This document shows positions 6,665 to 18,634 of a DNA stretch of 64,000 nucleotides, one piece after another. Every line of letters starts with the position of its first letter. Position 1 is the first letter of the stretch. The notes beneath the pieces are model-generated. The model was not told the origin of the DNA. It ran no database searches and saw only the letters and a program-made list of their open reading frames with translations. Where the stretch lies: positions 682,001 to 746,000 of the forward strand of contig NZ_WJIE01000004.1 in NCBI RefSeq assembly GCF_009649845.1. The letters run 5' to 3'. Origin of the DNA: Polyangium spumosum. GTDB lineage: Bacteria > Myxococcota_A > Polyangia > Polyangiales > Polyangiaceae. The translations under genes were made by a program, and so were the position numbers.

Positions 6665-9600
6665 ATGGCCGTGATGCGAGGCCGTACATCCCGCGCTTCG
6701 AGCCTCGTCGCGCTCCTCGCGTTCGCGACGCTCCCGGTGACAGGCTGCAAATCCGGCGCGTCGGGCGGCGCCACGAAGGGGTCCGCGTCGCCCGCGGAGA
6801 AGCCCGCCGCCGTCCCCGGAAAACTCGTCCCGATGGTCTCGCCCTCGCGGCTCTTGCCCGACGTGCGCGGCGATCGCGGGGTCATCGCGTACGAGGCGGG
6901 CGCGCGGCGCGTGCTCGTCGATCGCATGCGGCTCGTCACGTACGAGGACGGAAGGACCGAGCGGGCGAACGAGCTCCTGCCGCTCGGTCACGTGCGCTCC
7001 GTCGAGCTGCCGAGCCGGCTCGGCGGCGGGTTCGTCTTCCACGCGACCTCCGGCGGAGGCACGCAGCTCTGGCGCGCCTCGTCGTGGCTCGGGAAGCTCC
7101 GGCCGCTCGTGCAGTTCTCGTCGACCACGACGGACGTCGTGCCGGGGTTCGACAGGCTCTACCTCAGGCTCGCGTCGAACGGAAAACTCGTCGCGGTCGA
7201 CACCGAGACGGGCGAGGTGCGATCCCTCGCGCCGCTGCCGCCCGCCGCCGCGTACGGGGGGCTCGCGTTCGCCGACGGGTTCTCGGGGGTCGTCGACGCC
7301 GATCTGCGCGGCGTGCTCGCCACGTTCGACGCGGGCGCGACCTGGAGGCCGCTCCACCTGCCCGAGCGCCCCGCCGCGATCTCGGTCGTGGACGGCGAGC
7401 CGACGATGTTCGTCACGGGCGGCAAGTACGTGCTCGATGCGCGCGGAAACCTCACGTACCGCGCGAGCCAGGTCGCGACCGACGACGAGGGCGACGACAC
7501 GACGCCCGCCGCGCCGAAGGGGCCGTTCGGGAAGAAGGTGCTACGCGCCGCGGTGGAGGACGGCTTCCCGGACTCGCCACGCACGGCCGTCGTCGCGAGG
7601 CAAGGGGCGCTCGCGCGGGTCTCGCTCGACACGGGCGCGATCGTCGATCTGAACCTCACGGCGTTCCCCGAGCGGGAGGCGAGCTGCCACGCGACGCGCG
7701 TGGGCGCCTCGTACGGCTTCGTCTGCGGCGAGCGGGAGGGGCCAACGAACGTGTACACGTTCGCGCCGCCGCTCGTGATGAAGAAGGTCCTCTCGTTCAA
7801 GGGCCCGCGTTTCGTGTCGCCGAACGGCCAGGGCGCGCTCGTGGTCCGCGGGCCGTGCGGCGAGGAGGACGCGGGCGCGGCGAGTGATACACGTGTCTAC
7901 TGCGTGCGCGCCGCGAGCGGGGCGACACGCGAGGTGCGGGTGAAGGGGGATCTCGGCGTCGAGCGGGTCGTGGCGCTCTCGGACGAGCGGGTCGCGATCC
8001 TCGTGCCGCCACGCGCGGGCAGCACGGGGCAGCTCACGATCCTGAAGGGATCGGACATGACGAACGTGCCGCTCGTGTTGCCGCAGAAGCCACGCAGCGT
8101 GGCGCGGGAGCTCCGGCGCGGGATGTGGCTCGAGGGCTTCGAGGAGCGCGAGCCGGGCGTGCTCGGCGGCTGGGTGGAAGCAGGCGGCCCCGTGATCGGC
8201 GTGCGCGTCAAACTCGACGGCGCGGTGACCGCGGGGGAGGCGCGCGACAACGAGAACGGCGTGGTGGTCTCGGGGCGCTTCGCGCTCTCGCAAGGGGAGG
8301 GCGGGCGCTCGGCGGAGTCGACCGACGGCGGCATGACGTGGAAGGTCTTCGACATGCCCGAGCACGACGTCGCGCCGGGCGACGCGCCCACGCGCGCCTG
8401 CGGCCCCGTCGGTTGCGTGCTCGCGGGCTGGGTCCGCGTGGGCTGGGGCAAGCCCGCGATCTCCGGCGATCTACGCGCGGCGGAGGCGCCGCCTTCGCTC
8501 TACGTGCCGATGAAGACGACGCCGACGGTGCGGCTCACGTGCGCGCACGTGGGCAAACCCGTCACGGAGCCGCTGCCGGACAAGCCCGTGAAGAAGGCGC
8601 CGACGCCGCCGCCGCGGTCGTCGGGCACGTTCGGCATGGGCGGCTTCGGGGGCTTCGGGGGCTTCGGGCGTGTGTCGCCGCAGCCGCTGAAGACGCCCTG
8701 GAGCACGTTCCGCAACATGCCCGCGCCGACGCTCGACAAGGACGAGATCGGGATCGACAACGGCGCGCCGTACGACCTCGTGAGCCTGCGCGCGTACGCC
8801 TGGGGCAAGAAGGGCTCGGACTGGGCGCGCACGGGGCATTTTCTGGTCCGCTTCGACGATCGCTTCGATCCCGCGGGCGGCGTGCGCTCGACGGCGACGA
8901 GCGCGCCGCCCTGGCCCGACGAGAGCGCGACGGCCGACGGCATGGGCATCGGCTCGTACCCGCTCGCGTCGTGGGGCTCGTTCCTCGATCCGAGCGGGCG
9001 TCACGCGCTCTCGCACGTGTGTCGGGGGACGAGCTGCTCGCTGCTCGCGGCGAGCGAGGGGCAGCCGGTGCTGCTGCTCCGGGACGCGGCGGGGCGCACG
9101 ACGGGCCTCTCGCGGCCGTTGCCGCTGGGCGCGGTGCGGGTCGGCGAGAGCTGGTTCTTCCTCGCGCAGGGCACGTCGTACGACATGGTGTCGCTCTACC
9201 GCGTGGATCTCGGGGTGATACGGCTCGTGTCGTCGTTCCATCGGCCGAGCCCCTCGCGGTACACGATGCCGGAGCCGCCGCGGCTCGTGCGTCGCGCGCT
9301 CGGGACGGGCCTCGGCCTGCTCGTCACGAGCATCCCGGAGCCGGGCGAGCGCTTCGGCGGGATGTACGTGCACCCGGTGGATCCGGAGACGGGCGTGGTC
9401 TCCGAGCCCATCGCGCTCGGCAAGCGGGACCTCGGCGGCGCGCTGCCGCCGCGCTGCGTGGAAGGGCAGGACGGCTGGATCCTGGACACGTCGCTCGACG
9501 TGTCGCCGTCGCTCGAGACGCCGGGCGGCCGGGGGACGTTCGACTCGGTCGAGATGCGGCTGCGGCTCGATCCAGGACAGGCGTGCGTGGAGGGGATCGC

Positions 9601-9745
9601 GGCGCGCCTCGACGGCACGTTCCTGCCGCATGCGGAGGCGAAGGCGAGGCCGGCGGACAGACCGGCGCAGCCGGCCGCGGTGCCACTCGCGGCGACGGAG
9701 CGATCGACGGGGCGACGGTGGAGCTTCGTGTGCAGCCGGCGCTAG
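6665..9745 (+). CDS. Large lipoprotein with beta-propeller-like repeats
   Basis: 1026 residues. A signal peptide ends in lipobox LPVTGC, with Cys28 as the acylated residue. The mature protein is beta-rich with repeats typical of propellers, including an Asp-box-like ESTDGGMTWKVFD near residue 555, as found in sialidase and BNR proteins. A glycine-rich linker FGMGGFGGFGGFGR near 660 separates the N-terminal propeller from a second beta-rich half. Several cysteine pairs are compatible with an extracytoplasmic location. Start is ATG at 6665; ATG at 6674 is an alternative. It is divergent from asd and convergent with the following methyltransferase (4-nt gap). No catalytic site is apparent, so a role beyond a surface lipoprotein would be speculation. 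Confidence 0.9.
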   Translation: MAVMRGRTSRASSLVALLAFATLPVTGCKSGASGGATKGSASPAEKPAAVPGKLVPMVSPSRLLPDVRGDRGVIAYEAGARRVLVDRMRLVTYEDGRTERANELLPLGHVRSVELPSRLGGGFVFHATSGGGTQLWRASSWLGKLRPLVQFSSTTTDVVPGFDRLYLRLASNGKLVAVDTETGEVRSLAPLPPAAAYGGLAFADGFSGVVDADLRGVLATFDAGATWRPLHLPERPAAISVVDGEPTMFVTGGKYVLDARGNLTYRASQVATDDEGDDTTPAAPKGPFGKKVLRAAVEDGFPDSPRTAVVARQGALARVSLDTGAIVDLNLTAFPEREASCHATRVGASYGFVCGEREGPTNVYTFAPPLVMKKVLSFKGPRFVSPNGQGALVVRGPCGEEDAGAASDTRVYCVRAASGATREVRVKGDLGVERVVALSDERVAILVPPRAGSTGQLTILKGSDMTNVPLVLPQKPRSVARELRRGMWLEGFEEREPGVLGGWVEAGGPVIGVRVKLDGAVTAGEARDNENGVVVSGRFALSQGEGGRSAESTDGGMTWKVFDMPEHDVAPGDAPTRACGPVGCVLAGWVRVGWGKPAISGDLRAAEAPPSLYVPMKTTPTVRLTCAHVGKPVTEPLPDKPVKKAPTPPPRSSGTFGMGGFGGFGGFGRVSPQPLKTPWSTFRNMPAPTLDKDEIGIDNGAPYDLVSLRAYAWGKKGSDWARTGHFLVRFDDRFDPAGGVRSTATSAPPWPDESATADGMGIGSYPLASWGSFLDPSGRHALSHVCRGTSCSLLAASEGQPVLLLRDAAGRTTGLSRPLPLGAVRVGESWFFLAQGTSYDMVSLYRVDLGVIRLVSSFHRPSPSRYTMPEPPRLVRRALGTGLGLLVTSIPEPGERFGGMYVHPVDPETGVVSEPIALGKRDLGGALPPRCVEGQDGWILDTSLDVSPSLETPGGRGTFDSVEMRLRLDPGQACVEGIAARLDGTFLPHAEAKARPADRPAQPAAVPLAATERSTGRRWSFVCSRR

Positions 9746-9749
9746 CCGC

Positions 9750-10493
9750 TCAGGGCTTCTTCGCGACCACGATGTACTGATCGGGCAAGGTCTCCGGGAC
9801 GACCTCGGCTTCGAGGCCCGCGGACGCGAGCTCGGCGATCATGGCCTCGGGCGTGATGCGGTGCTCCTTCGGCGGGCCCTTCGTGGCCTCCATCGTGAAG
9901 TCGACGATGACGAGCAGGCCGCCGGGCTTCAGGCCGTCGCGCACCTTCGCGGCGTAGTCCTTTCGTCCGTCGATGTGGTGCCAGACGTCGACGATGAGCA
10001 CACGATCGACGGTGCCCTGGCCGAGGCCCGGATCGGCGAGCCCGACCTGACGCGCCTCCACGTTGTCGAGCTTCTCCTTCGCGGCGCGCTCGCGCAGGTA
10101 ACGGACCATGTCGGCCTCGACGTCGAGGGCGAGCACCTTGCCGCTCGGGCCCACGCCACGCGCGAGGTGCGGCTCGAAGTACCCCGTGCCCGCGCCGAGA
10201 TCCGCGACGGTCATGCCGGGCGAGAGGCGCAGCGCCGCGACGACCTCGTCCGGCTTCTGCCAGGCGTCACGCGCCGGATCGTCGAACTCCTTGGCCCAGT
10301 CCTCGGCCTTCTCGAAGCGATGCACGAGCGGCCCGCCGTGCCCGTGATGGCCGTGATGGCCGTGATGGCCGCCGTGCGCGTGGGCGCCTCCCGCGGGCTC
10401 GGCCGTCTTGGGGGCGGGTTGCGTGGCGCTCGCGCCGCCGCAGCCGGCGAGCAGAGGGAGCGCGAGGATCACGAGGAGAGGATGAAGTCGCAT
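9750..10493 (-). CDS. Lipoprotein-anchored class I SAM-dependent methyltransferase with His-rich linker
   Basis: 247 residues from ATG 10493. The signal sequence MRLHPLLVILALPLLAGC has its lipobox Cys at 18. A histidine-rich linker (about 37-53, HAHGGHHGHHGHHGHGG) follows, then a Rossmann methyltransferase: motif I VADLGAGTGYF near 96-106, acidic ALDVEADMVRYL, and post-motif strands VDRVLIVDVWHHID and GGLLVIVDF. The fold and motif I support SAM binding. The lipoprotein signal would place it outside the cytoplasm, where SAM is not expected, so substrate and even activity are uncertain; metal binding by the His tract is an inference. An upstream in-frame start at 10511 overlaps the trmO stop and would disrupt the signal peptide. 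It is convergent with the upstream lipoprotein and follows trmO. Confidence 0.88.
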   Translation of the reverse strand: MRLHPLLVILALPLLAGCGGASATQPAPKTAEPAGGAHAHGGHHGHHGHHGHGGPLVHRFEKAEDWAKEFDDPARDAWQKPDEVVAALRLSPGMTVADLGAGTGYFEPHLARGVGPSGKVLALDVEADMVRYLRERAAKEKLDNVEARQVGLADPGLGQGTVDRVLIVDVWHHIDGRKDYAAKVRDGLKPGGLLVIVDFTMEATKGPPKEHRITPEAMIAELASAGLEAEVVPETLPDQYIVVAKKP

Positions 10494-10504
10494 GACGCGC
10501 CCTT

Positions 10505-11362
10505 CTAGCACCTCGACTCCCCATCCTCCCGGCCGAACCGCGCGACGAACGCGCGATGCACGTCGACGGCAGGATCGTCGGAGAGCGCGAGATCGCGCTC
10601 GCGGTAGCCCGTCCCGATCGACAGGATCGTGACGTCGCGGCGATCGACGCGGAACCGGACGCGGAAGTCCTTGTACGCGAGGCGCAGCGTGCCGTCGGGC
10701 AGGGCGCGGATGCGGCGGTACGGGTGCGGCTGCGGGCCGAGGCGCAGCGTCCGATCGACGGGCGCGACGAGATCGATCCCGTGTTCGTCGCGGAGATACG
10801 CGGCCTGCGTGGAGGCGTGCGCGCTCCAGGTGACGGAGAAACCTGGCTCGGGATCCGCCGGCGCCTCGCCCGCGTGCTCGTCCGGGGCCGCGAGTGGCTC
10901 GAGCCAGCCCGTGCGCGCGCCGGGCCGCGCCTCCGCGTAAGGGATGTAGGGCTTGATGTCGAGCACGGGGCTCTCGTCGATCATGTCCACGTCGCGAACG
11001 TGGATCACGAGGCTCTCGACGGAGACGAGGCGCACGAGCGAGAGGCCGATGGGGTTCGGCCGATGGGGCGATCGCGTGGCGAGGACGCCGCGGCGTTTGC
11101 CGGCGCTGCGCGGGGGCAGGACCTTCGGCCTCCAGCCTTTGTTGAGGTGGAAGAGGAAGACGACCCAGAGGAACTCCCAGCCTTCGAGATCACTCACCGC
11201 GTGCTCGAGGCCGCGGCCGGCGGCGAGCTCGATGCGGCCCTCCGCGCCCTCCGAGGCGTGCGGCTGGCGCGGCGTGCTCACGCGATCGGGGAACGGCGTG
11301 CGCAGGATCCCGATCGGCGTGAGCGAAATCGGGCTGAGGCGGGGATCGTCGGGTCGTAGCAA
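10505..11362 (-). CDS. trmO: tRNA (N6-threonylcarbamoyladenosine37-N6)-methyltransferase TrmO (TsaA/YaeB family)
   Basis: About 285 residues. The N-terminal TsaA domain carries the family signature: IGILRTPF near the start, then GRIEL, DLEGWEFLWVVFLFHLN, GVLATRSPHRPNPIGLSLVRL and VLDIKPYIPY. TrmO adds a methyl group to t6A at position 37 of threonine tRNAs using SAM. The C-terminal part (from about residue 165, GFSVTWSAHAST onward) matches the YaeB-type extension. Start is uncertain: no ATG or GTG is well placed, and TTG at 11362 keeps the full domain while leaving the two 51-bp hairpin repeats outside the gene. The longer frame to 11914 reads through the repeats into the neighbouring esterase and is an artefact. 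It is probably cotranscribed with the methyltransferase lipoprotein (11-nt gap). Confidence 0.88.
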   Translation of the reverse strand: MLRPDDPRLSPISLTPIGILRTPFPDRVSTPRQPHASEGAEGRIELAAGRGLEHAVSDLEGWEFLWVVFLFHLNKGWRPKVLPPRSAGKRRGVLATRSPHRPNPIGLSLVRLVSVESLVIHVRDVDMIDESPVLDIKPYIPYAEARPGARTGWLEPLAAPDEHAGEAPADPEPGFSVTWSAHASTQAAYLRDEHGIDLVAPVDRTLRLGPQPHPYRRIRALPDGTLRLAYKDFRVRFRVDRRDVTILSIGTGYRERDLALSDDPAVDVHRAFVARFGREDGESRC

Positions 11363-11374
11363 TGTGATGGGGGG

Positions 11375-11477
11375 TTTGGGGGCGTAGCTCGGCTTGTCCG
11401 AGCGTAGCCCCCAAGCGTAGACCACGTTTGGGGGTGTAGCTCGGCTTGTCCGAGCGTAGCCCCCAAGCGTAGACCAC
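11375..11477. repeat. Two tandem 51-bp copies of an imperfect-hairpin repeat
   Basis: Unit 1 is 11375-11425 and unit 2 is 11427-11477; they differ at a single position (c or t after the G run). Each holds two perfect stem segments, gggggc/gcccccc-type outer and gctcgg/ccgagc inner, separated by a symmetrical gta/gta internal loop with a cttgt apex. The pair fills the space between the esterase stop (11482) and the trmO start, both on the minus strand. It could act as a processing or termination element, or be a dispersed repeat that has expanded locally. Confidence 0.85.
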
Positions 11478-11481
11478 CAAC

Positions 11482-14400
11482 TTACTCGGTCCACATCGCT
11501 TCGGACTCGCCCATCGTGCGGTACTTCGTGTCGATGTGGTTCATGAGCTCGAGCCACCACGACTCGAGCTTCGCGCCGCTCGCGAGCGGGCTCTCGCCGA
11601 AGAACGTGCCGCGGATGCACTCGGCCTTGCCGTCCGGACCCGTGCGGCAGCGGCCGTCCACGAACACCATGATCATCTTCGGCAGCCGGCTCTCCGTGCT
11701 GTCCGTCGGCGCGTTCATGAACGTCTTGATCAACGCCGACGCCGCCACGAGATCCTGCGGCTCCTGGCCGTAGCCGTGCAGCGCGTAGACGACCGGGTAA
11801 CGCCGCTCCTTCTGGTCCTTGTGCGCATAACCGGGCGGCAGCGCCACGCTGACCGGGCCGACGCGGCCGAAGGACGACTTGAACTCGAAGTTGCAAGCGC
11901 CCGCGACCTCGCACGGCTCGGCGTCCGGATCCGCGTCGTCGTTGCTCTCGAGCACGAGCGTGCGCAGCTCCGGATCGGGCCAGCGCGAGCCGATGAAGTA
12001 GAGCGCGCTCTGCAGGCGCGCCACGAGCTCGTTCGCCGTGCCCACGTGCTGGCCGCTGCCGCTCTCGATGTCCGCGGCCGTCGGATCGAGCTTGCCGTAA
12101 CGCTGCAGCACGATGCCGGGCAGGTCCGCGTACGGCACGCGCGAGGGCGCGTAGGCGTTGAAGTTGCCCGGCTCGAGCTCGGGGTGCTGCGTGAAGTCCG
12201 AGAAGTACGTCACGCTCCGCTTGCGCGCGCCGAACGCGCCCGCGAGGTGCTGCGCGCTCACCGCGAAGTTGAAGAGGTCACGCGTGCCGCCGTCGGTCCA
12301 CACGTCGATGCGCCGAAGCGCCGCGTCGTCGAGCTCGCCGCCGGGCGGCGCCTCGCGCGTGATGCGGTGGACGATCGAGTGCGCGTCGCGCTCCCAGAAC
12401 CGGTCGAGCCCGCTCGCGACCGTGAACTTCCCGTCGCCCTCGCCGACGTCGTAGCCGTCGCCCTCCTGCTGCCAGCCCCCGGGCGGCTGTTGCTTCGTGC
12501 CGGCGACGCCGTCGAGGCCGACGTCCTGGAAGGGCTCGCCCGCGTCGAAGCGCATGTTGCCCTCCGTGCCGCTCGGGTTGTACTGCGCGTCGTAGTCGTC
12601 GCCGGCCGGATCCTCGTTCACGCCCGGCATGTACCCGGGCTCCATCGTGCTCGGGATCCCGTCCTTGCCCACGTCGTCGAACGGCTCGTGGCCGGCGCGG
12701 ATGATCGGCTCCATCTCGTCGCGCTTGCCGTTGCCGTTGTAGTCGACCGCGAGCGCGAGCTCGAGCGGGTAGGTGTTGCCCTCGTCGGTCCACCAGTTCG
12801 CGTACGGCGAGCGCTCCTGCTTCTGCGGCGAGCCGTCGCAGACCGTGATCACCGGGAAGGTGCCGTCGGGGTTGAACTCGTCGTCGAAGTAGCTCGTCAG
12901 CGTGAGCGTGTTCGCGCAGCGCTCGATCGGGCAGTTCTGCTCGAGCTCCTGCTGCTTCTCCTTGTCCGGCCCGTCGAGCGGATCGACCCAGAGCGTGCAC
13001 TCGTCCGTGGGACGGCCGCCCGTCTGGCTCGCATCGTCCGGGCGAACGCCGGCGGGCAGGTTCTCCGCGCCGGGCGTGAGGTTCTCGCCGTTGGGGTTGC
13101 CGAACATGACGGCGAGGTCGCGGAAGATTTGCACGTACGCCCCGCGGTTGAAGCTGCCGCCGGTGCCCGTGCGCGGGTACTCGAACCACCACTGGTTGAA
13201 GACCTGCGTGTGCTCGTACGGATCACGCGGCGGCAGGATCCACGCGCACTTGCCGGGTGATCCGTCGATCACGCCGATACACGTCTCGTCCGCCGCGCAC
13301 TCGGCGTTCGTCTGGCAGAGCGTGGGCTCCATCGGGATGTCGCCGAGCACCGTGCCCTTCTGGATCGGCCGGAACCCGCCGACGTAGTGGCGCTTCACCG
13401 CGTCGAGCATCCACGTCCAGGAGACCGGCCCGCCGAGCGGCGCGAGGGCGTCGAAGAGGTGGTGGTGGCGCATGCCGAACATGGCCGTGCCGCCGCCGCC
13501 CATCGAGACGCCGAGGATCGCGCGGTGGGTCAACCTGCGCGGATACGTGTTCGTGCCGGCGTCCTTCGCCACGACGGCCTGGTAGGTGCCGAGCCGCGGC
13601 GCCTTGAACGAGAGCGCCCACGTGTCGCCGACCTTCACGAAACGCGCGTCCGCGACCGGCACCACGCGCGGCTCCTTGAAGGCCGGGCCCGAATACGCGA
13701 CCGAGACGTGGCGCAGGCGCGCCTTCTCCGGCAGACGCGCGGGGTTCACCGGGATGGTCATCGGCACGTCGCGCTGGAACCTCGAGGCGACGGGGCCAAA
13801 CGTGACGGGCGGGCCGAGCGGATCGTAGCCGGTCGGCAGCGTCGCTTCGCCGCAGGCGATCGTCGCGTCGAACGGCGCGACGCTCCACAGGTAGCTGCCG
13901 CTGTTCGGGTTGCTCGCGCCCTCGGGCAGGCCGAGGCTCGCCGCCGCGAGGCCGCCCTTCGCCGTGATCGTCTTGCCGCCCTCGACCTTGCCCGTCGCGC
14001 CGTCTCCCGCGGCGCAGGTGACGTCGGCCGCGCCGGACGTGTCGAGCACCTCGACTTCGAGCGTGGCCTCCACCTCGGTGCCGTCGCCGCGGGGCAAGAA
14101 GGCCTTCACCGTGGCGCTGCCGCCCGTCTTGCCAGCGGCGACGGCGACGTCGACGCCCGCCTTGTACAGGTCGAGCGTGTCGCCTGCGGGCGCGGGCGTG
14201 ATGTCCGCGCTCGACGTCTCGAAGCGGATCGGGGTCTTGGTGCAGAAGTCGGGCTCGGCGACGAGGCGGACCGTGCGCGTGGCGCACGCCGCGCCCTCGG
14301 CGCATTTCGCGACGAATACGCGGCTCGGCTCGAAGCGGAGCTTGACCACGTCGGGCGACGGCGCGGAGCAGAAATCACCGGGCCGGAGCGTCGGGTCGGT

Positions 14401-14538
14401 CCCGCCGGAGCTCGTGGGCGGGGTGGTCTCGGTGGTGCAGCTCGGCGCGGCGACGGCGCCGAGCGCGCCGAGGAGCGCGAGGACGGAAGCCGCGCGGAAA
14501 CGCGTGGAAGAAAAGCCCCATAGGCGAGCGGTCGTCAT
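11482..14538 (-). CDS. Large esterase-like lipoprotein with apparently circularly permuted alpha/beta-hydrolase fold
   Basis: 1018 residues. The signal peptide ends at APSC with Cys34 probably acylated. Residues 35-335 are beta-sandwich-like with several Cys. A nucleophile elbow RAILGVSMGGGGTAMFG lies at 339-355 (Ser345) followed by LFDALAPLGG, as in EstD/antigen-85-type esterases. The part of the fold normally N-terminal to the elbow (YPVVYALHGYGQ, then MIMVFVDGRC, GTFFGES and LMNHIDTKYRT) appears at the extreme C-terminus, about 900-1012. Between them sit Asp/Asn-rich calcium-loop-like segments (DYNGNGKRDEMEP, EGDGYDVGEGDGKF). The order suggests a permuted or split hydrolase; a catalytic acid and histidine are not assigned. 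Surface location is inferred from the lipobox. No operon partner defines a substrate. Confidence 0.88.
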   Translation of the reverse strand: MTTARLWGFSSTRFRAASVLALLGALGAVAAPSCTTETTPPTSSGGTDPTLRPGDFCSAPSPDVVKLRFEPSRVFVAKCAEGAACATRTVRLVAEPDFCTKTPIRFETSSADITPAPAGDTLDLYKAGVDVAVAAGKTGGSATVKAFLPRGDGTEVEATLEVEVLDTSGAADVTCAAGDGATGKVEGGKTITAKGGLAAASLGLPEGASNPNSGSYLWSVAPFDATIACGEATLPTGYDPLGPPVTFGPVASRFQRDVPMTIPVNPARLPEKARLRHVSVAYSGPAFKEPRVVPVADARFVKVGDTWALSFKAPRLGTYQAVVAKDAGTNTYPRRLTHRAILGVSMGGGGTAMFGMRHHHLFDALAPLGGPVSWTWMLDAVKRHYVGGFRPIQKGTVLGDIPMEPTLCQTNAECAADETCIGVIDGSPGKCAWILPPRDPYEHTQVFNQWWFEYPRTGTGGSFNRGAYVQIFRDLAVMFGNPNGENLTPGAENLPAGVRPDDASQTGGRPTDECTLWVDPLDGPDKEKQQELEQNCPIERCANTLTLTSYFDDEFNPDGTFPVITVCDGSPQKQERSPYANWWTDEGNTYPLELALAVDYNGNGKRDEMEPIIRAGHEPFDDVGKDGIPSTMEPGYMPGVNEDPAGDDYDAQYNPSGTEGNMRFDAGEPFQDVGLDGVAGTKQQPPGGWQQEGDGYDVGEGDGKFTVASGLDRFWERDAHSIVHRITREAPPGGELDDAALRRIDVWTDGGTRDLFNFAVSAQHLAGAFGARKRSVTYFSDFTQHPELEPGNFNAYAPSRVPYADLPGIVLQRYGKLDPTAADIESGSGQHVGTANELVARLQSALYFIGSRWPDPELRTLVLESNDDADPDAEPCEVAGACNFEFKSSFGRVGPVSVALPPGYAHKDQKERRYPVVYALHGYGQEPQDLVAASALIKTFMNAPTDSTESRLPKMIMVFVDGRCRTGPDGKAECIRGTFFGESPLASGAKLESWWLELMNHIDTKYRTMGESEAMWTE

Positions 14539-14569: not shown

Positions 14570-16225
14570 TCAGGGCGACGGCACTTCGGGCTCCGGCTCG
14601 GGCTCGGGGTCGGGGTCGGGCGCGGGGGGCATCTCCTCGGGGAGCGCGGGGAGCGCGCCCGTGACCGGCGACTTCTCGATCGACGCGACGAGCGCGCCGT
14701 CGGTCACGCTTCCCACCCAGGATCCCTGGAGCGAGACGGGCACCGCGATGTCGTCGACCTTCGCGCCGGCCGCGGCGAAGATCTGGACGAGGCCGATTTT
14801 TCCCTGGATGGCAGAACCATCCTGGGCCGCGTCCCAGCGCGCGGTGAGCGCCTCCTGACAGAGGCCGGCGAGGCACGTGGCGTCACAAGCGCCGAAGCTG
14901 CCGAGGGCCTGGCCGAGCGCGTCGCAGCCCGCGATCGTCGCGAGCGCGTCCCCCATCGTCGTGCCTTCGGGCGCGCCTTCGAGCGCCACGCTCTTGCACA
15001 CGCCGCCCACGTACCGCGTGGGCAACCAGAAAAGCTCTGCGCTCGTGGCGATGTTGTCCCCCGGCTCGGACGCGATCTTCACGAGGTGCGTGCCCGGCAT
15101 GCCGGCTTCGTCGGCCGGGACGACGCCGAGGCGCGACGGCGAGAAACTCCCGTAGCCGGGGACCGCCGTGAGCGCGGTCAAACGCCCGGTGAGCTCGCCC
15201 GGCGGCGCGCTCGAGCCCTGCGCGAGGAACGCCTCGATCGCCGCGCGCAGCGTCATCGGCTGCGCGGCGAGGTGGTCCTTCGTGATCGTGTCCCAGCCGC
15301 TCGCCGCGCGGGCGTCGGCGAAGAGCGCTCCATCGAGCTCGGAGACGCGCGCGGCCATCTCGTCGAGCAGCCACGTCGAGGCCTCCGCGCCCGCGGGCGC
15401 GAATCGCTGGAGCAAGTCCTTGCCCGCCGCGGTCATCATCGAGCCCCACGGCGTCGCCGCGGGCGTGAACACGAAGCTCACGTCGAGGTCGGTCTTCCCG
15501 ACGACGATGGGTTTGTCGATGATGTTGACCTTGATCTTCTCCGTCGTCCCCGCGATGAGGCCACTCGCCGTGGCGCAGCCCCACGCGTAACGGCCGGCGC
15601 GCACCGAGACCGCGAGCGTCGGGCCGACGGGGGCCTTCTCCACGAAGAGCGGCTCGGAAGCGGGCGCGCTCATCACGATGTCGGCCGGCGCGTCGTCCGG
15701 CAGGAGCGGCGCGACCGCCTCGCACGTCGAGCGCGGCAGCACGCTGACCGTCCAGGTCGTGACGTCGCGCTTGCCCTTGTACGTGGGCACGACCTCGAGC
15801 GTCGCGAAGCCGTCGCCGCTCACCGTCACGGGCAGCTCGGCCGCGGGGCCGTCCTTGATCCACGCGCGCAGGGTGAAGCTCGTCGCCTTGTTCGGCGCGC
15901 GCATCTGCACCGTCGCGGCGCCCTCCGCGTTCATCGGGGCCGCCACGCGATCGAGCGTCGCGTCGAGCGAATCCCCGAGCAGGACGAACCACACCTCCGA
16001 GGACGTCGGCGGCTCCGTTCGCACCGTGATCGTGGCCTGCTCGCGCATGCCCAGGTTCAGCGTGCCCTCGTTCGTGAAGAGGAGCTGCGTCTTGGGAGCC
16101 TCCTCCACGGGCGGCGACCACGGCGTCACCGCGGGCGCCTCGTCGTCACTCTCGGCGCAGCCGAGCAGCGCCGGCCCCGCCGTCGCGAAGAGGACAAACC
16201 ATGAAAGACGGAAAGGTAAGCGCAT
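14570..16225 (-). CDS. Lipoprotein, unknown function
   Basis: 551 residues. The signal peptide ends in ALLGC with the lipobox Cys near residue 23. Residues about 45-250 form Ig-like or bacterial surface beta domains (ATITVRTEPPTSSEVWFVLLGD, ATSFTLRAWIKDG). About 265-480 is helical with Cys-rich spots (CDALGQALGSFGACDATCLAGLC). The C-terminus is an acidic-proline tail of repeated P-D/E pairs (PDPDPEPEPEPE). No enzyme motif is visible. It sits 31 nt upstream of the large esterase-like lipoprotein gene on the same strand, so the two are probably coexpressed and both displayed on the envelope. Confidence 0.88.
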   Translation of the reverse strand: MRLPFRLSWFVLFATAGPALLGCAESDDEAPAVTPWSPPVEEAPKTQLLFTNEGTLNLGMREQATITVRTEPPTSSEVWFVLLGDSLDATLDRVAAPMNAEGAATVQMRAPNKATSFTLRAWIKDGPAAELPVTVSGDGFATLEVVPTYKGKRDVTTWTVSVLPRSTCEAVAPLLPDDAPADIVMSAPASEPLFVEKAPVGPTLAVSVRAGRYAWGCATASGLIAGTTEKIKVNIIDKPIVVGKTDLDVSFVFTPAATPWGSMMTAAGKDLLQRFAPAGAEASTWLLDEMAARVSELDGALFADARAASGWDTITKDHLAAQPMTLRAAIEAFLAQGSSAPPGELTGRLTALTAVPGYGSFSPSRLGVVPADEAGMPGTHLVKIASEPGDNIATSAELFWLPTRYVGGVCKSVALEGAPEGTTMGDALATIAGCDALGQALGSFGACDATCLAGLCQEALTARWDAAQDGSAIQGKIGLVQIFAAAGAKVDDIAVPVSLQGSWVGSVTDGALVASIEKSPVTGALPALPEEMPPAPDPDPEPEPEPEVPSP

Positions 16226-16291: not shown

Positions 16292-18634
16292 TCAGGGCGG
16301 AAGGGGGACGTGGTCTGTCCGGACGTGCGAGAGAGCGCCCGCGGCGGGCAAACCCGGCGAGCCCGCGGCCTTGCCGGGTAGCCCGGGCGAAACCAGGAGG
16401 CGAGCCGCATTTCCGCAGAGGATCAAGGCCTCGCCGAGGGCCAGCGCCGCGGCCTCGAGCGGGCTGAAGAACCCCGCCGCGCAGAGCGGGATGACGGCCG
16501 CGTTGTACACGCCCGAGACGAGGAGCGTTTGCCGGAGCGTCGCCCGCAGGGCCCGCGCGAGATCGACGAGCCACGCGACGGTCTCCAGCCGGTCGTCGCA
16601 GAGCACGAGGGGCGCAGGTACGGCCACGGGCAAGGCGCCCGGGGCGACGGCGAGCGAGACGTCCGCCGGCGTCTTGCGCGCCCGGTCCTCGTGCCCGTCG
16701 CTGATGTGGAGGACACGCGCGCCGGCCTGCTGCAGCGCACGCACGTGCGAGGCCTTCTCCGCCGGGCCGAGCCCGCCGAGCGCCGGGACGCCCAGCCGAT
16801 GCGCGAGCGCGAGCGTCGCGTCGGGGCCGTCGCCGCTCACGAGACGGCAGCCGAGCCCGCGCTGGAAGAGGGCGCGGAAGGCCCGCTCGGCCCCGACCCG
16901 CGGCCCGTCCCAGAGCTCGAACCAGGCTTCGACGACCCCATTGCGGCGCACGCAGACCAGGCTCGCGCCCTCCCGCGCGTCCGGCGGCAGAGGATCCCCG
17001 CGCCGCGCCGCCGAGACCTCGACGAGCGCGCCGCGCGACCGGCCCACCACGCCGTCGGGCCGCACGTCGGCGGGCTCGTCGAGCGTGGAGGGGCGCACGC
17101 CGGCCACCACGAGGTGATGCGCGATGGCGCGGCCCGCGCGGTGCGTCGCGGCCATCTCCAGCGCGGCCACGTCCTCGAGGATCGAGATGTCCGGGAACTC
17201 GCGCCAGGCGAGGCGCGTGACCCGCGGCGTCCCCAGGGTCACGGTGCCCGTCTTGTCGAAGCAGGCGACCGTGGCCGTCGCGAGGCCCTCGAGCGCAGCC
17301 GGATCCTTGACGACCACGCCCGCCGCGCGCGCCCGCAGCACCGCGATCGTCCGCGCCGCCGGCAGCACGATCACGAACGCCGCGGGGGACGCGCCGATGA
17401 GCACCGCGATCGCCGTGAGGTAACCATCCGGGTGGAACGGGCCTCGGCCGAGCAGCGCGTGCACGACGAACGCGAAGCCGGCGAACGAGACGGACGCGAC
17501 CGACAGGGCGAGCGAGGCCACGTGCGCGAACGACTTCCCGCGGTGTTGCCGCGCGTCCCGCTCGATGCGCAGCGCGGCGCGGTGGACCTCGGCGTCGGCC
17601 GCGGCGGCGACCTCCGAGCAGGGGGCCCGCACCACGCGGCCTGTCACCTCGCCCGAGAGCAGCCGCGCGCCGGTCTCGACGATCTGCCCGCTCGCCCGGT
17701 CCTCGGCGCGTCCGTCCGGCAGCATGACCCGCGCGGCGCCTTCGAGCGCGATCTCCACGGGCGCGACGTCGCCTTCGCCGAGGCGCACGCGGTCGCCGGG
17801 CGCGAGCAAGGCGCAGGCGACGCGCTCGTCCACGCCGTTCGGGCCGATGCGGCGCACGCGGGCGTCGCGGGCCGCGGCGGCGCGCGAGAGGCCGCGGAAG
17901 GCGCGCGTGAGCAAGGCCGTGTGCGCGAAGAGCACGAGGATCGCGCAGCCCAGGATCGCGCCCGAGGCCTCGAAGGCCCGCAGCGCGACGCCGTCGAGCT
18001 CGAGCCCGAGGCGGGCGAGCCTCTCCGTGAGGGAGGCGGATCGGCTCGGATCGAAGGCCATCGCGGCGACGCCGAGCACGAACACGATCGAGGCGCAGGC
18101 GAGCGTGACGACCTCGCGGCCGACGACGCCGCGCCGCGCGAGGGCGCGGGCGCGATGGAAGAGCGGGGTGCCGGCCACGGCGAAGAGCAGCAGCGTGAAG
18201 CCGAGCTCGACCCAGGCGATCTCGCGCTCGGGCGCGCGCGTGGGCCTCCACGAGGCGAGGGCGAGCAGGTTCGCGAGCAGCGCGACGACCAGGCCGAACC
18301 GACCGGCGTCGAGCCGCGTTCGTTCGCTGGGTGGTGCGCCCGCGGCGGCCGTCAGCGTGAAGCCGCGTTGCGCCATGGCGGCCACGATCTCGCGTTCGCT
18401 CGTGACGCGTACGTCGTAGATGGCCTGGGCGATCTCGCCGAAGAACCCCACGGACGCAGCGCGGACGCCTGGCAGGGCGCGCAAGGCTTGCTCGGCGTGT
18501 CGGGCGCAGCTCCGGCAGGAGAGGCCTTCGACGTGGAAGGTCGCCTCGTGCTCGAACGTGGGCCGCGCGTGGCCGCCCTCGCGCCCGGGACGGGCGTCAC
18601 CCTCGACAAGCGCAATGGGAAAGGATTTGTGCAT
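16292..18634 (-). CDS. P1B-type (heavy-metal) ATPase homologue with degenerate core motifs
   Basis: 780 residues. An N-terminal heavy-metal-associated domain has GLSCRSCARH (CxxC at 40-43). Several membrane segments follow (about 113-128, 140-158, 175-192, 225-243, 370-395, 405-428). The phosphorylation loop CFDKTGT is intact (Asp460). Other hallmarks are not: the membrane metal site, normally CPC before ALG, reads GASPAAFVIVLP (414-425); the actuator TGE region reads LLSGEVTG; the HP motif reads THRAG; and the hinge GDGxND reads ISDGHED (644-650). Known P1B pumps need these residues for ion transport, so it may have altered selectivity, a regulatory role, or be decaying. Length and frame are intact. 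It is a monocistronic-looking minus-strand gene between lipoprotein genes. Confidence 0.88.
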   Translation of the reverse strand: MHKSFPIALVEGDARPGREGGHARPTFEHEATFHVEGLSCRSCARHAEQALRALPGVRAASVGFFGEIAQAIYDVRVTSEREIVAAMAQRGFTLTAAAGAPPSERTRLDAGRFGLVVALLANLLALASWRPTRAPEREIAWVELGFTLLLFAVAGTPLFHRARALARRGVVGREVVTLACASIVFVLGVAAMAFDPSRSASLTERLARLGLELDGVALRAFEASGAILGCAILVLFAHTALLTRAFRGLSRAAAARDARVRRIGPNGVDERVACALLAPGDRVRLGEGDVAPVEIALEGAARVMLPDGRAEDRASGQIVETGARLLSGEVTGRVVRAPCSEVAAAADAEVHRAALRIERDARQHRGKSFAHVASLALSVASVSFAGFAFVVHALLGRGPFHPDGYLTAIAVLIGASPAAFVIVLPAARTIAVLRARAAGVVVKDPAALEGLATATVACFDKTGTVTLGTPRVTRLAWREFPDISILEDVAALEMAATHRAGRAIAHHLVVAGVRPSTLDEPADVRPDGVVGRSRGALVEVSAARRGDPLPPDAREGASLVCVRRNGVVEAWFELWDGPRVGAERAFRALFQRGLGCRLVSGDGPDATLALAHRLGVPALGGLGPAEKASHVRALQQAGARVLHISDGHEDRARKTPADVSLAVAPGALPVAVPAPLVLCDDRLETVAWLVDLARALRATLRQTLLVSGVYNAAVIPLCAAGFFSPLEAAALALGEALILCGNAARLLVSPGLPGKAAGSPGLPAAGALSHVRTDHVPLPP

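Follow-up and report, generated by a model that had tools for sequence, protein, structure and literature searches.

A predicted circularly permuted PF00756-type serine esterase of Polyangium spumosum and its homologues across the phylum

Features of the locus

The window analysed, i.e. the whole stretch of 64,000 nucleotides taken from contig NZ_WJIE01000004.1 of Polyangium spumosum, carries on its reverse strand an open reading frame (P0001) in which the following parts were delimited; coordinates are those of the window, and residue numbers refer to P0001.

11482..14538, reverse strand, whole gene P0001, 1018 residues plus stop (basis: open reading frame)
14437..14538, reverse strand, signal peptide with a likely lipobox APS-Cys34, residues 1-34 (basis: sequence)
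14029..14436, reverse strand, beta-rich domain 1, residues 35-170 (basis: AlphaFold model, otherwise poor, with strands whose block-mean pLDDT reaches 77)
13546..14028, reverse strand, beta-rich domain 2, at most ZU5-like, residues 171-331 (basis: sub-threshold ZU5 match in the relative L030)
13363..13545, reverse strand, ELB part: nucleophile-elbow strand with the next helix and strand, residues 332-392 (basis: match of profile 255-295 to 7xrt 145-184)
13504..13506, reverse strand, predicted catalytic Ser345 (basis: 92 of 92 ORFs)
12319..13362, reverse strand, CAP: long insertion from the elbow part to the Asp strand, residues 393-740 (basis: family alignment)
12709..12744, reverse strand, EF-hand-like loop D599-x-N-x-N-G-x-x-D-x-x-E610 (basis: conservation in 92 ORFs)
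11965..12318, reverse strand, DH part: predicted catalytic Asp/His region, residues 741-858 (basis: conservation and part-profiles)
12277..12279, reverse strand, putative catalytic Asp754, assigned from conservation and position (basis: 92 of 92 ORFs)
12046..12048, reverse strand, putative catalytic His831, assigned from conservation and position (basis: 91 of 92 ORFs, one gap)
11884..11964, reverse strand, predicted linker that joins the former C- and N-termini, residues 859-885 (basis: family alignment)
11485..11883, reverse strand, HG part: LPPGY, YPVVYALHGYG, VDGRC, C974 and a helix ending HIDTKYRT, residues 886-1018 (basis: Pfam and PDB profile matches)
11767..11778, reverse strand, HGYG, predicted oxyanion-hole loop, residues 921-924 (basis: role from homology; G922 and G924 in 90 of 92 ORFs)

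From its N-terminus, P0001 comprises the signal peptide with the lipobox, two beta-rich stretches, the elbow part with GVSMGG (residues 343-348), the acidic insertion, Asp754 (within DVWTDGGTRD), His831 (within SGQHVG), the linker, and a C-terminal part that extends from LPPGY (900-904) through YPVVYALHGYGQ (914-925) and MIMVFVDGRC (VDGR, 960-963) to HIDTKYRT (1001-1008); the chain stops 10 residues further on. The elbow segment, RAILGVSMGGGG, contains Ser345, and the ELB part forms the new N-terminal end of the predicted permuted fold; the HG part, which is the usual N-terminal half of PF00756-type esterases, is here the last in the chain. The sequence-only reading of this gene had placed the GVSMGG elbow with Ser345 first and the YALHGYG, VDGR and HIDTKYRT strands last, and the motifs, their positions and their order were all found to be correct.

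P0001 is probably exported and lipid-anchored, as judged from its N-terminal sequence, presumably in the outer membrane; the lipobox APSC at residues 31-34 is not a strong one. A simple regular expression, applied to the stop-to-stop ORFs of the family, detected a hydrophobic stretch followed by a lipobox-like motif in 64 of the 92 ORFs and gave no match in the other 28; six of the 92 are truncated where the locus begins.

For the beta-rich domains 1 and 2 of P0001 no Pfam match was obtained, and one of four relatives scanned (L030) gave a ZU5 match below the threshold (15.7 bits at a cut-off of 21; E 0.019). Domain 1 is an add-on that is absent from compact relatives (e.g. L058, L062), in which the signal peptide is followed by a short low-complexity linker and then by the elbow strand, whereas the Polyangium protein has the two beta-rich stretches between the export signal and the elbow strand.

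Occurrence and part order in the phylum

P0001 found matches in 99 of the 377 genomes of the host's phylum, the host included (E <= 1e-10), and a profile of the cap found matches in 107 of the 377 (E <= 1e-6); in eight of these 107 genomes only the short cap motif was found, and three of the eight ORFs with the cap part alone were examined with Pfam, each of which was LptD. Four named Polyangium records carry a homologue of P0001 (89-90% identity), and for 11 genomes of the same family no match to P0001 was listed. Within the host genome, no second match to P0001 was obtained at E up to 10. The same genome has 11 places matching PF00756, including four ORFs listed with both motif patterns; in two of these (L041, L043) the HG pattern clearly precedes the elbow, and the two from L040 are uninformative. 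A scan of viral contigs with the family alignment gave 30 pattern matches, none of which was confirmed, and a scan of plasmids gave three weak matches in Candidatus Manganitrophus, each to residues 599-669 only.

The loci examined cover all 99 genomes matched by P0001 except one (G237). The first 106 loci yielded 95 hit ORFs; 92 of these have 690 residues or more and were aligned, and the three shorter ones were left out. Four part-profiles, which were built from this family alignment and so favour family members by construction, detected 109 ORFs with the cap and another part, and 102 of them have all four parts (100 distinct sequences, since two proteins were fetched twice each). The order ELB-CAP-DH-HG was found in 102 of these 102 ORFs, and the canonical order in none; the other seven of the 109 (L106, L223, L225, L073, L224, L088, L103) run off contig ends. 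Among the canonical esterases used as controls, the two with both halves (L118, L126) have the order HG-ELB; another 13 ORFs have the elbow part only and 13 the HG part only, and are uninformative on order.

Judged by these part-profile matches, the swapped order is a fixed architecture of a phylum-wide family, and not a peculiarity of one gene. An assembly or annotation artefact, i.e. a rearranged or chimeric contig or a wrong frame, has a next to negligible probability: no point was found in its favour, and the order recurs in one open frame in all four-part ORFs, from many separate assemblies.

Conserved residues, cap and linker

In the alignment of 92 ORFs, Ser345, Met346 and Asp754 are invariant, and His831 is kept in 91, with a gap in the remaining one; at position 749, 90 ORFs have Asp and two have Glu. 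G922, G924, C964 and C974 are kept in 90 ORFs, with gaps in two; at position 921, 76 ORFs have His, 14 have Pro and two have a gap. A Ser-Asp-His triad and an oxyanion HG loop are present and conserved in the family, with the putative roles of Asp and His assigned from conservation and position. The same order, together with intact catalytic residues across many myxobacterial families, argues that the rearrangement is real and old, and that the enzyme probably still works.

The cap comprises 276-371 residues between the alignment columns of residues 388 and 749, and its invariant residues in the 92 ORFs are D599, E610, D622, D626, D672, D676, D697, C541 and C567. In the EF-like loop, D607 is kept in 89 of the 92 ORFs, and N601 in 85, with Asp in the other seven. 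The spacing of the motif from D599 to E610 is that of the EF-hand loop consensus, and the cap is predicted to bind calcium. At E <= 0.1, the cap matched the PDB only once, in a short acidic segment of SprA (E 0.0057); the outer-membrane proteins SprA (6h3i) and LptD have this short acidic motif in common with the cap and nothing else, and are not esterases.

The linker, measured between the columns of residues 854 and 901, is 34-59 residues long in 90 of the 92 ORFs, and the remaining two have 0 and 15 residues there; L088 and L103, which are part of this alignment, are cut by contig ends before the linker. In 74 of the 92 ORFs, the chain ends 10-14 residues beyond the column of Arg1007.

Evidence for a circular permutation

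For native P0001, Pfam PF00756 placed only the C-terminal part (residues 890-931 to profile positions 4-34), with 27.8 bits and hence above the gathering score of 22, and 41 of the 45 A2 members matched PF00756 at E <= 0.001. When searched against the PDB with phmmer, P0001 matched 7xrt in two parts in swapped order, i.e. residues 336-407 to 7xrt 144-215 (23.2 bits) and, weakly, residues 893-931 to 7xrt 42-77 (7.0 bits). A native profile of 45 members aligned to the same chain with positions 721-800 (chain 26-105; 38.5 bits), weakly with positions 861-887 (chain 117-144; 8.7 bits), and with positions 255-295 (chain 145-184; 26.9 bits); the Asp/His region gave no significant PDB alignment of its own with this profile (-2.5 bits). 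The C-terminal piece ends at 7xrt residue 144 and the elbow piece starts at 145, so that the two join on the reference without gap or overlap.

A native profile of eight diverse members matched 7xrt as two domains (34.7 bits for chain 30-144 and 24.0 bits for 145-189; total 57.9), and the same eight members, when rotated and with the cap omitted, matched it as one domain (6-196 to chain 38-202; 67.1 bits, total 68.3). Upon rotation, the score of this profile rose from 48.8 to 61.1 bits for 8z91 and from 36.6 to 47.3 bits for 7b5v; the match to 1jjf was still split (50.5 to 52.9 bits). The core of P0001 was covered by PF00756 in two stretches in the native order and in one when rotated (14-234 to profile 4-194), with a total score that hardly shifted (32.0 to 33.4 bits), and all eight rotated members matched PF00756 at E <= 0.01. 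In a rotation scan, the references were 32 canonical PF00756 proteins from the host and its relatives, most of them distant; with one truncated family row dropped, the scan had a shallow optimum (mean best-domain score of 17.6 bits for the native order, 19.1 for the best rotations, with starts at 783-843, and 12.4 for the worst); the scan agrees with a permutation and proves little.

These alignments support the prediction that the chain of P0001 is a circular permutation of a PF00756-type esterase, and the order Ser - Asp - His - HG in all four-part ORFs marks a permuted PF00756 relative, rather than an ordinary member. The sequence-only reading had proposed either a circular permutation or a swapped domain; the permutation is borne out by the abutting pieces and by the collinear match after rotation, and a domain swap is not needed. 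In a domain-swapped dimer each half would complete the sheet of another chain, and the long cap that separates the elbow part from the Asp strand could permit such swapping; however, the cut and fusion points are as expected for a circular permutation, the old termini are spanned by 34-59 residues in 90 of the 92 ORFs, and swapping would add to the permuted order and not replace it. We regard a swapped dimer as highly improbable.

It is also very unlikely that P0001 consists of two independent domains, i.e. of an N-terminal elbow-like fragment and a separate C-terminal esterase-like fragment with no common active site. Independent domains would suit the distance of about 490 residues that separates the halves in the chain, and also the low confidence with which either half was modelled, but the halves are complementary and non-overlapping and abut at 144/145 on one esterase chain, and the residues of the triad and the oxyanion hole are kept together in the aligned set; furthermore, a half-sheet of either kind alone is an incomplete alpha/beta-hydrolase. 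AlphaFold models of residues 34-1018 (985 residues; pLDDT 35.8) and 735-1018 (284 residues; pLDDT 37.0) were obtained from the same six sequences (the window protein and L002-L006), and their low pLDDT is most likely due to too few diverse input sequences. Since both models are poor (pLDDT 36-37), the alpha/beta-hydrolase fold is predicted here from sequence.

Comparison with other hydrolases

The family resembles the CE1/feruloyl esterases of PF00756 (7xrt, 1jjf, 5vol, 7b5v) in its GxSMGG elbow, in LPxGY...YPVxYLLHGxG and in the helix ending YRxR, and differs from them in its permuted chain and in the cap between the elbow and the Asp strand. EstD, S-formylglutathione hydrolase, antigen 85 and PS1 mycolyltransferase have the canonical chain order and resemble the family in the elbow part only (6sx4, PS1, 36.8 bits; 3e4d, 20.0 bits, E=0.0019; 1sfr, 13.9 bits, E=0.13); this group as a whole is a weaker match to the family than the CE1 esterases. 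The canonical order, which the initial reading had taken from esterases of the EstD/Ag85 type, is indeed swapped in P0001, but the nearest solved relatives are of the CE1/feruloyl type (7xrt, 1jjf, 5vol).

The family might also represent a divergent type 2 extracellular PHA depolymerase, and thus an already known permuted alpha/beta-hydrolase with no independent event, which we consider unlikely. The structure paper on the P. funiculosum PHA depolymerase reportedly describes the fold as permuted. According to PMC2666664, the oxyanion hole of type 2 PHA depolymerases is located C-terminal to the triad; the order of triad and oxyanion segment in these enzymes (e.g. of P. funiculosum, 2d80/2d81) is identical to that in the family, and an alpha/beta-hydrolase of such an order is therefore not unprecedented. 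For a fungal enzyme with 69.2% identity to 2d81, Ser39, Asp121 and His155 were predicted (PMC12345228), and permuted peripheral strands occur in the superfamily according to a 2024 classification review (PMC11878206).

Against a type 2 PHA depolymerase, no sequence relation to these enzymes was found in the best 60 of 62 PDB matches of the A2 profile (E up to 10), and both halves match CE1 esterases instead. In NCBIfam, where a type 2 model is perhaps not included, none of five members matched a model of that name, and P0001 matched the type 1 model weakly (18.5 bits at a cut-off of 150). We know of no such EF-loop cap in type 2 PHA depolymerases.

Predicted enzyme

P0001 is very probably an exported serine esterase of the PF00756 type (CE1/feruloyl-esterase-like) with a circularly permuted chain and, probably, a lipid anchor. 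In the proposed permutation, the chain would have been opened in the loop that leads from the helix ending YRT to the nucleophile strand, and the short linker would join the old N- and C-termini, with the resulting order Ser345 - cap - Asp754 - His831 - oxyanion HGYG. The triad residues are located away from the opened loop, and the active site should therefore survive the permutation; once folded, the chain would have an ordinary Ser-Asp-His active site and cleave esters through the usual acyl-enzyme cycle, in a pocket shaped by the large acidic cap with its probable calcium.

The substrate is possibly an acylated or feruloylated polysaccharide. A comparison of the neighbourhoods of 39 loci (up to 20 kb each, with crude gene calling) gave no operon evidence for a substrate among the clusters listed, which were the top 25 at most, with at least four loci each; many of these clusters were antisense or shadow ORFs of the esterase gene itself, and the neighbours that recurred at similar distances were shared within groups of related loci.

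Evolution and significance

A phylogeny was calculated with FastTree and rooted at the midpoint for 82 members, i.e. the 92 aligned ORFs minus the truncated L088 and L103 and minus L002-L009, which are the MAG L006 and the other loci from Polyangium. The tree clusters by GTDB family label, with the members of f1, f2, f4, f5, f11, f27, f35, f49, f51 and f53 each together. That the gene tree follows the taxonomic family suggests a single old permutation and mainly vertical descent thereafter, with losses or gaps; the permutation probably arose once, before the divergence of the sampled families, and perhaps through a tandem duplication from which the outer halves were lost. We consider it likely that a CE1/PF00756 esterase was permuted independently and on a single occasion, at the root of the Myxococcota or close to it, with vertical inheritance thereafter, and that the permuted order is linked to an invariant, calcium-dependent cap, which may explain its fixation; in the compact branch, no structured element would precede the catalytic strand apart from the export signal and the linker.

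To our knowledge, few natural circular permutations of alpha/beta-hydrolases are known. Circular permutation of these enzymes has been used as an engineering method, as with Candida antarctica lipase B (from the reference list of PMC2395249). No description of this family was found among the openly licensed papers searched. The family is a new, phylum-wide and probably independent example of a type of rearrangement that is already known.

Genes of this type are readily mistaken for fragments or for unknown proteins in annotation, since Pfam places only one half of P0001 in its native order. The permuted esterase is deeply conserved, with about a hundred homologues and with canonical relatives of solved structure, which makes the evolution of a permuted enzyme directly testable.

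Gene neighborhood and 3' region of the esterase

The following features were predicted around the permuted esterase gene of P. spumosum (window coordinates and strand):

6665-9745 (+), large lipoprotein-like ORF
9750-10511 (-), SAM methyltransferase with a His-rich, lipoprotein-like N-terminus
10505-11914 (-), downstream ORF matching TrmO_N (129.9 bits), a domain of tRNA methyltransferase O
14570-16225 (-), large lipoprotein-like ORF
16292-18634 (-), heavy-metal P-type ATPase (HMA, E1-E2_ATPase and hydrolase domains)

No Pfam matches were obtained at E 0.001 for the two large lipoprotein-like ORFs.

A few bases beyond the esterase stop codon, a 52-nt tandem duplication is located at window 11374-11477. 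The two copies are 98% identical, and folding predicts a strong minus-strand hairpin in each, one at -29.2 kcal/mol (z -5.2) and the other at -25.5 kcal/mol (z -4.2); the pair is possibly a doubled terminator.

Acidic repeats and the acidic cap motif

In the relative L101:1143-4394, acidic double-disulfide repeats were detected with NF033662 at 72 bits, the best stretch being 839-863. From the hit boundaries, these repeats were placed between the PPGY and HGYG strands. Extra residues are also found at this place in the loci L049, L100, L102 and L104.

An acidic motif resembling that of the esterase cap (the long acidic insertion) is present in eight ORFs that match the cap profile without the other esterase parts (L206, L208-L214); all three of these that were tested are LptD-type outer-membrane proteins. 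A similar stretch is also found in SprA (6h3i). The acidic motif of the esterase cap, the LptD-type proteins and SprA may represent a common calcium-binding module of outer-membrane proteins.
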